From: Deltaproteobacteria bacterium
GTDB lineage: Bacteria > Myxococcota > JACPTQ01
Reading direction: 5' to 3'
DNA: 64,000 nucleotides
NCBI GenBank assembly: GCA_016192705.1
Contig: JACPTQ010000012.1
Location: 1 to 64,000 of the forward strand
Shown here: positions 2,179 to 37,592 of the stretch, piece by piece
Position numbering within the stretch: position 1 is the first letter of the stretch
Layout: each line of letters starts with the position of its first letter
Notes under the pieces: generated by a model
What the model was told of the DNA's origin: nothing
Databases searched by the model: none
Seen by the model: only the letters and a program-made list of their open reading frames with translations
Made by a program: the position numbers and the translations under genes

Positions 2179-3597
2179 TCACTGTTGTTTGAGACGCGCT
2201 TTGTCTACGACGCGAACGGTGTTGTCGAGGAGGTCGCGCGAGAATTTGAGGCCGTGGCCCGGAATAATCCACGCGGCGTCGAGCGGGCGCAATCGCTCGA
2301 TGGTGCGTCGCATCGATTCGCCGCGCTCGCTGAGGAGCTGCGCGGTTGCGTCGGACGCGTAAACGGGAATGCCCGCGGCGACGAGCGCTTCGTTGCCGCC
2401 CGATCCGTCGAAGTGGTGGTGCGAATTGATCGCGACGACGGGCGCGCCGGGAAACGTTTTCTTGAGCCACGCGATGACAGCGCGTGTAGCGACGGCATCG
2501 AACGGCGTGCTCACGAGGACAAGGGTGCCGTCGGCGACGCGAACGACGAGCGAATTCGACGGCGTCGGGCGCTCGTGGGTGACGACCCAAACGTTGGGCG
2601 CGAGCGGACGCGCGGCGAGTTCGTCGTTGATACGAACACCCGTTCTGGTACTGGAGCTGGAACCGGGAAACCGCTGGCTGAGGGCGGCTTCCTGCGCTTC
2701 GTCCCAGGCCCAGTCTTTGGCCGAAACGGGCGCGATGCGATAGAGCCACGAAAGGCCGATGGGGCCGACGTAGTCGTCGCGCTCTGCGTAAACCGGATCG
2801 GCGAGCGCGCGGTCGAGCGTGACGAAGGAAAACCCTTCGCGACCAAGCGCCGCGAGGATTTTGTCGAAGTGATCGGCGTTCAGCGCGTTCGCGTGGAAGA
2901 GCGCGACGTGGGCGATGTCGCGGCCAACTTTGGTGCGCGCCATGTTGCGGTAGCGGCGGGCGGCGGCGACGACGTATTCGACGTACGCGGAAACGATCGC
3001 ATGCTGTTCGTCGGTGTCGCCACGATTTTTCGCAGCGACGTACGCGGCCGCGAGCACCCAGTCGGCGATATCGATCGTGACGTGGGCCGTCTTGAGGTCG
3101 AGAGCCGCGAGACCGGCGCGCGCAGATTCGCGTCGTTCGGGCGTTTTCCCTTGGCGAAGGTAAGGAAAGCGAAAGTGGCGCGAGGGGGCGAAGGGACGAA
3201 GCGCGTCGTCGCAGCGACGGACGTCGTCGAGCCAAGCTTCCGGCGTGACACCGTCGAGCGATTTGTGTCGCGCAGAATGATTTCCGAGCGCGTGGCCGGC
3301 GTTTGTCCAAAGGCGCATGATTTCGTCGCGGCGGGCCGACCCGGTTTTTTTGTCAACGAACCGATCGCACACGACGAACGCCGTTGCGGTCGCTTTGTGC
3401 GCGCGGAGTTTTTCGAGGAGGCGCTTCGTTGCGGCGACCGCCGAATCGCCGTGCGCGAGCGGTCCAACCCACGGCACGTCGTCGATCGTAATGGCGACGG
3501 GAACGCGGGCGGACACGGCGCACGCCGGCGAGAGCGCGAGGATTCCGAGGCAGGCGATCGCGAGGGGCGCTGTGCGAGATGCGAAGTTCTTTTTCAT
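2179..3597 (-). CDS. Exported NodB deacetylase fused to metallo-beta-lactamase-like domain
   Basis: A 472-residue protein with a signal peptide (about 1-30, ending near ACAVSA). Residues about 33-275 are a NodB polysaccharide deacetylase: TIDD at 37-40, H107 and H111 in HSARH, and RFPY at 143-146. Residues about 330-472 resemble a metallo-beta-lactamase fold close to class B1 order: HHHFDGSGG at 393-401 gives HxHxD, and IIPGHG at about 444-449 gives the last His. The middle segment that normally carries the third histidine and the cysteine ligand is missing, so the lactamase-like half may bind only one zinc or none. The start is set by ATG 3597 after a GGAGG ribosome site. The likely place of action is the periplasm. 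A long antisense frame over this gene is a shadow. Confidence 0.85.
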   Translation of the reverse strand: MKKNFASRTAPLAIACLGILALSPACAVSARVPVAITIDDVPWVGPLAHGDSAVAATKRLLEKLRAHKATATAFVVCDRFVDKKTGSARRDEIMRLWTNAGHALGNHSARHKSLDGVTPEAWLDDVRRCDDALRPFAPSRHFRFPYLRQGKTPERRESARAGLAALDLKTAHVTIDIADWVLAAAYVAAKNRGDTDEQHAIVSAYVEYVVAAARRYRNMARTKVGRDIAHVALFHANALNADHFDKILAALGREGFSFVTLDRALADPVYAERDDYVGPIGLSWLYRIAPVSAKDWAWDEAQEAALSQRFPGSSSSTRTGVRINDELAARPLAPNVWVVTHERPTPSNSLVVRVADGTLVLVSTPFDAVATRAVIAWLKKTFPGAPVVAINSHHHFDGSGGNEALVAAGIPVYASDATAQLLSERGESMRRTIERLRPLDAAWIIPGHGLKFSRDLLDNTVRVVDKARLKQQ

Positions 3598-3692
3598 AGA
3601 GCCTCCAAGTGTACGGTGTGACGGTTGAGCTTGGCGAGCGATCTATTCAAGCGCGTTTGATCACCGGACAGCGGATCGATTACGGTTGCCCC

Positions 3693-4238
3693 ATGTCTGA
3701 CCTTAAATCACTGGGTGAGGTTGTCGTCGAGGACTCGACGGGCGCGCGAGTGCCGCTCGGGCAGTTTTGGCGCGAGCGGACGGCGGTGTTTGTTTTTGTG
3801 CGCCACTTTGGGTGAGCGCTCTGCGGTGACCAGGTGGCCGAGTTGCGGCCGCGAATTCCGGAGTTGAGGGCGCTGGGGGCGGACGTCGTTGTCGTTGGAA
3901 ACGGCTGGGCCGCAGTGGCGCGCGCGTTTCAGGAGCGTCTCGAGATTAACGATGTCCCGGTTGTCTGCGACGCGAAGCGCGACGCGTACCGATTGGCCGG
4001 GTTTCGGCGAAGCGTCTGGTCGGTCTTTAACCCGGTCGCGGGCTGGTTTTACGTCCGCGCATGGTTTCGTGGTCACCGGCAAGGGCGAATGCAAGGCGAC
4101 GCGTGGCAACAGGGCGGCACGCTTGTGATTCAACCGGGCGGCGCCATTTTGTATCGCTTCGCTGCTCGGTTTGCCGGCGATCACGCACCCCTCAACGCTG
4201 TTTTTCGCGCGCTTCGACCAAACCGCGAAGCTGTATAA
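3693..4238 (+). CDS. Peroxiredoxin-like selenoprotein (AhpC/TSA-type), UGA read as Sec
   Basis: Reading through the in-frame TGA at 3813-3815 gives a 181-residue protein with selenocysteine at position 41 in RHFG-U-ALC-GDQVAELR. This matches the Prx-like2 / AhpC-TSA_2 pattern RHFGCxxC, with Sec in place of the first Cys and C44 as partner. Frame and family similarity continue unbroken on both sides of the TGA. A 7-bp hairpin lies 18 nt after the UGA (separate entry). The start ATG at 3693 is chosen because the family core begins just after it; the ribosome site is weak. The gene is divergent from the NodB/MBL gene. The role is probably peroxide or thiol redox chemistry in the cytosol. Automatic calling would split it into a 40-residue stub and a headless fragment. 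Confidence 0.85.
3834..3852 (+). promoter_or_regulatory. Candidate bacterial SECIS hairpin
   Basis: GTGGCCG (3834-3840) pairs with CGGCCGC (3846-3852), all 7 bp (six Watson-Crick, one G-U), closing a 5-nt loop AGTTG at 3841-3845. The loop begins 25 nt after the UGA at 3813-3815, within the spacing usual for bacterial SECIS elements, and contains G and U as in known SelB-binding loops. It sits inside the coding region, as bacterial SECIS elements must. That SelB binds it is inference. Confidence 0.65.
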
Positions 4239-4288
4239 CGCGTTGGTCATTTGATTGTGAGCACCTCAGTCGACTAGTCTCCCCGCGC

Positions 4289-5275
4289 TTGGAAATTGTT
4301 TGGACACGGTCGCTGTCGGATCCGGACGCGGCGGCATACGACGCGTTTCTGGAGTCCGCGCCGAGTGGGCACTACACGCAGTCGCGAAGCTGGGTGGAGC
4401 TTACAGCGGCGGCCTACCCGTTGCGGCCGCGCTACTTCGTTGCGCGCGAAAATGGCGCGGTTCTGGGTGCTGCGGCCGTTTTGAAAATCGCTGGGCTGGG
4501 TGCCGTGGTTCCGGTCGCGTGGGTTGAGCGCGGCCCAGCTGTTCGAGACGTTGCCGCGCTTGGACCGGTGCTACAGGCGCTCCATCGCGCGTCACGTCGC
4601 CATGGCAACATCTATTTGCGCGCGATGCCGTATTTCGCGAACGACGATCGCGGTGAGACGGAGTCTGTGCTTCACAGAGAGCGGTTTCGGAACGTTCAAA
4701 AGCCGACCGGGTCTCACGCCGCGACGTTGCGCGTCGCCGTCAGCGGCCTTTCGGACGAACAGATTCTCGAGGGATCCGATCGCAAGAAACTTCGGCAAGA
4801 ACTTCGAAATGCGGCGAAGGCCGGCGCAACGGTGCGGCGCGGCGGTTCGGGTGACGTGGATGTACTCGCGAAACTCTATGGAGACCTCATGATCGCTCAG
4901 GGGCAAAAATCGCGACCCATGCGCTGGTGGCAGGCGCTTGGCGAGCGCGTCGGCGCTGAGCCCGGTCGTTACGGCCTCTTCCTTTGCGAACACGCGGGGG
5001 CGCCGCTTGCCGCGACGCTCGCGATTCGATGCGGGGCGCGCGCGAGCTACGTTATGGGCGCCGCGGCGCCAGGGAAATTGCCGTTCTCGAAATCGGCGCT
5101 TTCAGTTTTCGAAGCGATACGTTGGGCGCGTGACGCGGGGTGTGTTGAGTTCGACATGGGTGGGATCCCGATTCCTGAAGACGCGGATGAGAAGCGCGTT
5201 GCCATTGCGCGCTTCAAGCACGATTTTGCGAAGGAGCCGGTCGCGTTGGTGCGCGAGCATGCGCGTTGGTTTTAA
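4289..5275 (+). CDS. FemAB-like aminoacyltransferase (GNAT fold)
   Basis: About 328 residues resembling the FemAB / lipid II glycyltransferase-like family that appears next to exopolysaccharide and cell-wall genes in Gram-negatives. Visible hallmarks are the N-terminal SGHYTQSRSW segment, the central basic stretch around SDRKKLRQELRNA, and the late GCVEFDMGGIP and RFKHDFAKEP segments typical of the second GNAT-like domain. It would transfer an amino acid or acyl group to a cell-envelope acceptor; the acceptor is unknown. The start is uncertain: TTG 4289 begins the conserved region, and no good ribosome site is seen. Its TAA stop overlaps the stop codon of the convergent phosphodiesterase gene by 3 bases. 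Confidence 0.7.
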   Translation: MEIVWTRSLSDPDAAAYDAFLESAPSGHYTQSRSWVELTAAAYPLRPRYFVARENGAVLGAAAVLKIAGLGAVVPVAWVERGPAVRDVAALGPVLQALHRASRRHGNIYLRAMPYFANDDRGETESVLHRERFRNVQKPTGSHAATLRVAVSGLSDEQILEGSDRKKLRQELRNAAKAGATVRRGGSGDVDVLAKLYGDLMIAQGQKSRPMRWWQALGERVGAEPGRYGLFLCEHAGAPLAATLAIRCGARASYVMGAAAPGKLPFSKSALSVFEAIRWARDAGCVEFDMGGIPIPEDADEKRVAIARFKHDFAKEPVALVREHARWF

Positions 5276-36879: not shown

Positions 36880-37592
36880 AGCGACCTGCGGATCTCAATG
36901 TTAAACTCTTTGCGGACGGGGCCGAGCGCGACGGTATGATCGCGCTCTACTCAAACCCACTGGTTCGGGGCTTCACGACGAATCCAACGCTGATGCGCAA
37001 GGCCGGTGTCACCGACTACCAGGCGTTCGCGCAATCCGTCGTGGAAGCCATCCCAGATCGTCCCATCTCGTTCGAGGTGTTTTCGGATGACTTCGCGGAG
37101 ATGAAACGGCAAGCCCTCGCCATTGCGGGCTGGGGTCAAAATGTCTACGTCAAGATTCCGGTTACGAACACACGGGGCGAGTACTCTTTGGCCTTGGTTC
37201 GTGAGCTCAGCTTACACGGGGTCAAGGTCAACGTCACGGCTGTGACCGCGCTCGACCAGGTCCGCGAAGTCGTCGCAGCCTTGGCGAACGCCGCTCCGTC
37301 ATACATCTCAATATTCGCGGGGCGGATTGCGGATTCTGGTCGTGACCCGGTCCCACTGATGGGCACTGCCGTCGATCTGGTGAGGCCACACGCAAACATC
37401 GAGCTGATCTGGGCCAGCCCGCGCGAACTCCTCAACGTCCAGCAGGCAGACACGGTGGGCTGTCACATCATTACCGTCACCAACGACCTCCTCAACAAGC
37501 TTGGTCTCATCGGCAAGGATCTGCACGAGTTCTCGTTGGATACGGTCAAGATGTTTTACGAAGACGCGCGGAAAGCCGGTTTCACGCTTTGA
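36876..37592 (+). CDS. Transaldolase-family enzyme
   Basis: 238 residues of the small transaldolase / fructose-6-phosphate aldolase type. FTTNPTLMRKAG near 33-44 and the Schiff-base lysine in VYVKIPVTN near residue 88 are diagnostic; YISIFAGRIADSG follows. A classical transaldolase makes sedoheptulose 7-phosphate, the substrate of GmhA encoded directly upstream, so it may feed the heptose pathway; this role is inference. ATG 36876 overlaps the gmhA stop and has GGAGG 5 bases upstream, predicting strong coupled translation. Confidence 0.88.
   Translation: MKRPADLNVKLFADGAERDGMIALYSNPLVRGFTTNPTLMRKAGVTDYQAFAQSVVEAIPDRPISFEVFSDDFAEMKRQALAIAGWGQNVYVKIPVTNTRGEYSLALVRELSLHGVKVNVTAVTALDQVREVVAALANAAPSYISIFAGRIADSGRDPVPLMGTAVDLVRPHANIELIWASPRELLNVQQADTVGCHIITVTNDLLNKLGLIGKDLHEFSLDTVKMFYEDARKAGFTL

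Follow-up and report, generated by a model that had tools for sequence, protein, structure and literature searches.

A SelL-related redox protein gene of a Myxococcota genome with an in-frame UGA, predicted to be read as selenocysteine

The window analysed here, 64,000 nucleotides of contig JACPTQ010000012.1 from a Myxococcota genome, contains a gene whose product is almost certainly a redox protein of an already named selenoprotein-type family, with a selenocysteine (Sec) in its active site. The reading that we hold with very high confidence is that of a thioredoxin-fold SelL-related/Prx-like2 (AhpC-TSA_2) oxidoreductase with a Sec41-Cys44 redox pair, in which the UGA is decoded by means of a hairpin. 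We infer the actual insertion of Sec at residue 41, as well as the chemistry and the substrate of the protein.

Reading frame, family and fold

The reading frame extends from the ATG at 3693 to the TAA at 4236-4238 and its sole internal stop is the TGA at 3813-3815, codon 41 (Table 1). With this TGA translated as Sec (U), the N-terminus of the protein is MSDLKSLGEVVVEDSTGARVPLGQFWRERTAVFVFVRHFGUALCGDQ..., and the TGA occupies the site of the first redox residue in the motif RHFG-U-ALC, as the preliminary description had stated. That description had also placed both flanks of the TGA in one frame and one family, and this was borne out: the frame shows no further stop, the GC content by codon position is similar upstream (70/43/70%) and downstream (74/51/69%) of the TGA, and both flanks match the same family (NCBIfam NF040769; Pfam AhpC-TSA_2). 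As it had likewise anticipated, standard ORF listing misreads the TGA as a stop and yields two pieces, 3609-3815 (68 aa) and 3834-4238 (134 aa).

Table 1. Coordinates of the selenoprotein gene, its elements and the selD gene of the same genome
Feature	Position	Strand	Details
SelL-related selenoprotein gene (predicted)	3693..4238	+	181 aa with a single Sec (residue 41), ends in TAA
In-frame TGA, predicted selenocysteine U41, first residue of UxxC	3813..3815	+	24 further SelL-type sequences have TGA in this column, other homologues Cys
TGC, resolving Cys44 of the UALC motif	3822..3824	+	invariant alignment column
Bacterial SECIS hairpin GUGGCCG-AGUUG-CGGCCGC	3834..3852	+	7-bp stem, 5-nt loop, -13.5 kcal/mol
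selD (L018)	contig C70:50295-51221	minus	own in-frame TGA, N-terminal HGAG-U-ACK

Over residues 7-171, the read-through protein matched NF040769 ("SelL-related redox protein") with E 1.4e-32, but its score of 112.7 bits remained below the curated membership cut-off of 120. The match to Pfam AhpC-TSA_2 (PF13911; E 3.7e-18) scored 66.4 bits and thus exceeded the gathering cut-off of 27. As a name for the family, SelL-related/Prx-like2 is preferable to a generic peroxiredoxin.

For homologues, 195 genomes from the phylum of the window were searched and the best 30 loci taken; two sequences from metagenome-assembled genomes (MAGs), L027 (Myxococcota) and L028 (Planctomycetes), were added. A TGA in exactly the codon-41 column was present in 25 aligned SelL-type sequences, including the window gene and both MAG sequences, and its presence in 24 sequences other than the window gene excludes chance. 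The same column contained TGC or TGT in L029 and L039, as well as in a group of paralogues (L024, L052, L054-L056 and L058), so that cysteine indeed occupies the UGA column in other homologues, where the preliminary description had suggested looking for it.

The AlphaFold model of the protein (pLDDT 88.5, pTM 0.87) showed a thioredoxin fold of one domain. Residue 41 was positioned between a strand (30-35) and a helix (42-60), the first helix of the active site, at the place where this fold has its redox residues.

On the plus strand, a FemAB/GNAT-type ORF (window positions 4061-5275) adjoins the gene downstream; as its listed start overlaps the selenoprotein gene, its true start probably lies further downstream. 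On the minus strand, positions 2179-3597 encode a polysaccharide deacetylase N-terminal domain and a weak metallo-beta-lactamase-type C-terminal match within one protein.

The hairpin downstream of the UGA

Bacterial SECIS elements (bSECIS) are described as having a loop of 3-9 nt, a stem of 4-16 bp, a G in the first two loop positions, a spacing of 16-37 nt and an MFE <= -7.5 (PMC13188914). The hairpin at 3834-3852 satisfies every one of these constraints, with a G at loop position 2 and a UGA-to-loop spacing of 25 nt; the energy given in Table 1 was obtained from a 24-nt test segment. When the 50-91 nt region was folded as a single sequence, it did not stand out from dinucleotide shuffles. 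So that RNA structure could be told apart from conservation of the protein, synonymous codons were randomised with gene-weighted usage in a set of 26 UGA genes, comprising the 25 SelL-type genes and the paralogue L025. The segment spanning codons +6 to +13 downstream of the UGA was more stable than expected from this randomisation (mean z -2.07 over the 26 genes), and for the hairpin of the window gene itself p was 0.017. In a sliding scan the overlapping offset +7 gave a comparable value (-2.17), while every other offset fell between -0.65 and +0.65. For the same codons of nine Cys homologues z was -0.57 and the hairpin was largely absent. The stability signal emerges only with synonymous-codon controls and comparison.

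Two loop registers occur at one offset in different relatives, a 5-nt form (GAGUUGC) and a 4-nt form (CAGUUG; alignments A3 and A4). The hairpin was not found by RNAalifold on the mixed alignment, because the relatives use both registers, and base pairs were hence counted per register. With sequences assigned to registers by eye, which leans towards structure, and with kinship inflating the covariation counts, 97.3% of cells paired in the 5-nt register and 89.3% in the 4-nt register, each with 9 cells changed on both sides; neither the observed covariation score nor the percentage paired was reached by any of the 500 shuffles in either register. Slid registers paired far worse (18-61%). Owing to the assignment by eye and the relatedness of the sequences, the synonymous-codon test is stronger than the covariation test. 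The SECIS hairpin at 3834-3852 is under selection.

The covariance model of the family recovered the window site, which was a training member, and an independent second site in the genome at C11:37029 (E 1.3e-5); matches beyond these two were at or near chance level. The second site belongs to another peroxiredoxin-type gene with an in-frame TGA (L025:1597-1599; contig C11, TGA at 37029), a member of the AhpC-TSA family with the motif GTW-U-PNC; downstream of its TGA lies the hairpin CTCGCGC-AGTT-GCGCGAG, whose 7-bp stem is perfectly paired. This gene likely encodes another selenoprotein. When the window was scanned for more candidates combining a UGA with a hairpin, only non-coding-looking frames were found besides the present gene. 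Among the homologues, one UGA gene (L034, G171 C55:38674-39162) had no hairpin at the usual offset (z +0.84), which may reflect a divergent SECIS or decay.

Selenocysteine machinery and alternative readings of the UGA

The genome of the window is a draft of 5.21 Mb in 88 contigs, estimated to be 96.65% complete. The preliminary description had made the Sec reading depend on selA, selB, selC and selD, and all four are present above curated cut-offs. The tRNA-Sec (selC), with anticodon TCA, scored 76.4 bits against a cut-off of 47, selA scored 557.8 bits, selD 368.3 bits and selB 280.7 bits, or 307 when its C-terminal neighbour in frame was added. The selA and selB frames were free of in-frame TGA. 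The in-frame TGA of selD falls at the usual Sec/Cys position of SelD, and stable hairpins lie downstream of it; selD probably encodes a selenophosphate synthetase which itself contains selenocysteine. Across the phylum, selA was above the cut-off in 150 of the 195 genomes and in 21 of the 23 genomes with the UGA form, the remaining two being incomplete MAGs. This co-occurrence agrees with the Sec reading, yet by itself it is weak evidence, since selA is common in the phylum.

Alternatively, a Cys gene in decay could have acquired the TGA as a nonsense mutation, or the TGA could be an error of sequencing or assembly. The sequence comes from a single draft genome, and standard gene callers would split the gene. 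However, the TGA column is common to the 24 other SelL-type sequences, which makes a mutation or read error very unlikely; in addition, frame, codon-position GC and family similarity run on to the C-terminus, the hairpin is under selection and the Sec machinery of the genome is complete. A pair of genes, one for a peptide of at most 68 aa ending at the TGA and one for a 134-aa protein from the GTG at 3834, would match the mechanical ORF list exactly, but it would place the UxxC motif on one product and the thioredoxin fold on the other. As the Cys homologues L039 and L029 are single proteins and the AlphaFold model is a single domain, we regard such a pair as highly improbable. Read-through of the UGA in this gene would equally be expected if the codon were reassigned throughout the genome, for example to Trp as in code 4. 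Against this, TGA terminates 10 of the 17 longer window ORFs checked and is missing in frame from selA and selB, by which reassignment is practically excluded, and the homologues have Cys in the column and not Trp.

For the preferred reading, a Sec41-Cys44 oxidoreductase, the following mechanism is proposed. SelB with Sec-tRNA(Sec) would bind the hairpin and decode the UGA as selenocysteine. During catalysis, the selenolate of Sec41 may attack a peroxide or disulfide substrate, Cys44 would then form a selenenylsulfide with Sec41, and a thioredoxin or glutathione-type reductant could reset the pair. The pairing of Sec41 and Cys44 through a selenenylsulfide is suggested by the position of U41 in the fold and by the alignment of U41/C44 on Cys44/Cys47 of human prostamide/prostaglandin F synthase (PGFS).

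Sec and Cys forms and relation to known proteins

In a midpoint-rooted protein tree, the SelL-type clade, which includes the window protein and consists of 24 Sec and 3 Cys members after two distant rows were left out, was separated from the Cys paralogues with 100/100 support. The Cys members L029, L039 and L053 nest within the Sec clade, at least two of them apart from each other. By alignment, L053 (G040 C31:11570-12058) has a deletion of 9 nt by which the UGA and two codons are lost, resulting in RHFG-CREQ versus RHFG-U-x-x-CREQ, with the second Cys kept. A strong hairpin is retained at the matching place (z -2.8, p=0.043, one sequence), and in this one gene it looks like a relic SECIS. 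The simplest reading is that within the sample Sec came first and Cys later, although the sampling is narrow, the inner forks are poorly supported and the root is a midpoint. That the SelL-related clade of this phylum started out with Sec, Cys forms being repeated later losses and the L053 hairpin a SECIS fossil, has in our estimate an even chance of being correct.

The corrected annotation repairs a gene broken by standard callers. It also contributes a redox selenoprotein from a deep and poorly sampled lineage, which is alone in its class in the genome set examined. No paper was found in the literature that pairs myxobacteria or Myxococcota by name with selenoproteins; selenoproteins of Anaeromyxobacter are listed in PMC1794560. 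As a bacterial Sec-using relative of animal SelL/SelU/PGFS, the family thus provides a tractable system for their chemistry.

Within NF040769 (SelL_rel_redox), members from the phylum share the in-frame TGA and the match is full-length, whereas the window protein scores below the cut-off and has 32-41% identity with the three named relatives to which it was aligned. Of the solved structures, those of SelU3/PGFS were nearest (human PGFS, wild type and C44S/C47S mutant; PDB 9us9/9usa), with E 8.7e-11 in the sequence comparison and E 5.8e-13 (TM 0.75/0.82) in the fold comparison. The human enzyme has a CxxC motif that aligns with U41/C44, but with Cys in place of Sec, and is about 25% identical to the bacterial protein. 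The likeness concerns the fold and the position of the redox pair, while reduction of prostaglandin endoperoxides is a feature of the human enzyme. SelL of aquatic animals, compared here by its description, is likewise Prx-like and has Sec in its redox motif. Its two Sec residues are spaced as UxxU. Unlike eukaryotic SelL, which carries two Sec residues (PMC3473315; diselenide work by Shchedrina et al., 2007, as cited therein), the window protein has the motif UALC with a single TGA and one Sec. Reviewed bacterial selenoproteins of the Prx-like thiol:disulfide oxidoreductase type belong to PF00578 and have UxxC or UxxU motifs, and a PF13911 protein with UxxS is also described (PMC13188914, PMC9312934). 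The window protein shares with them the superfamily and Sec at the first redox position, but they are of the PF00578 or UxxS type, whereas it best fits PF13911/SelL-related with UxxC.
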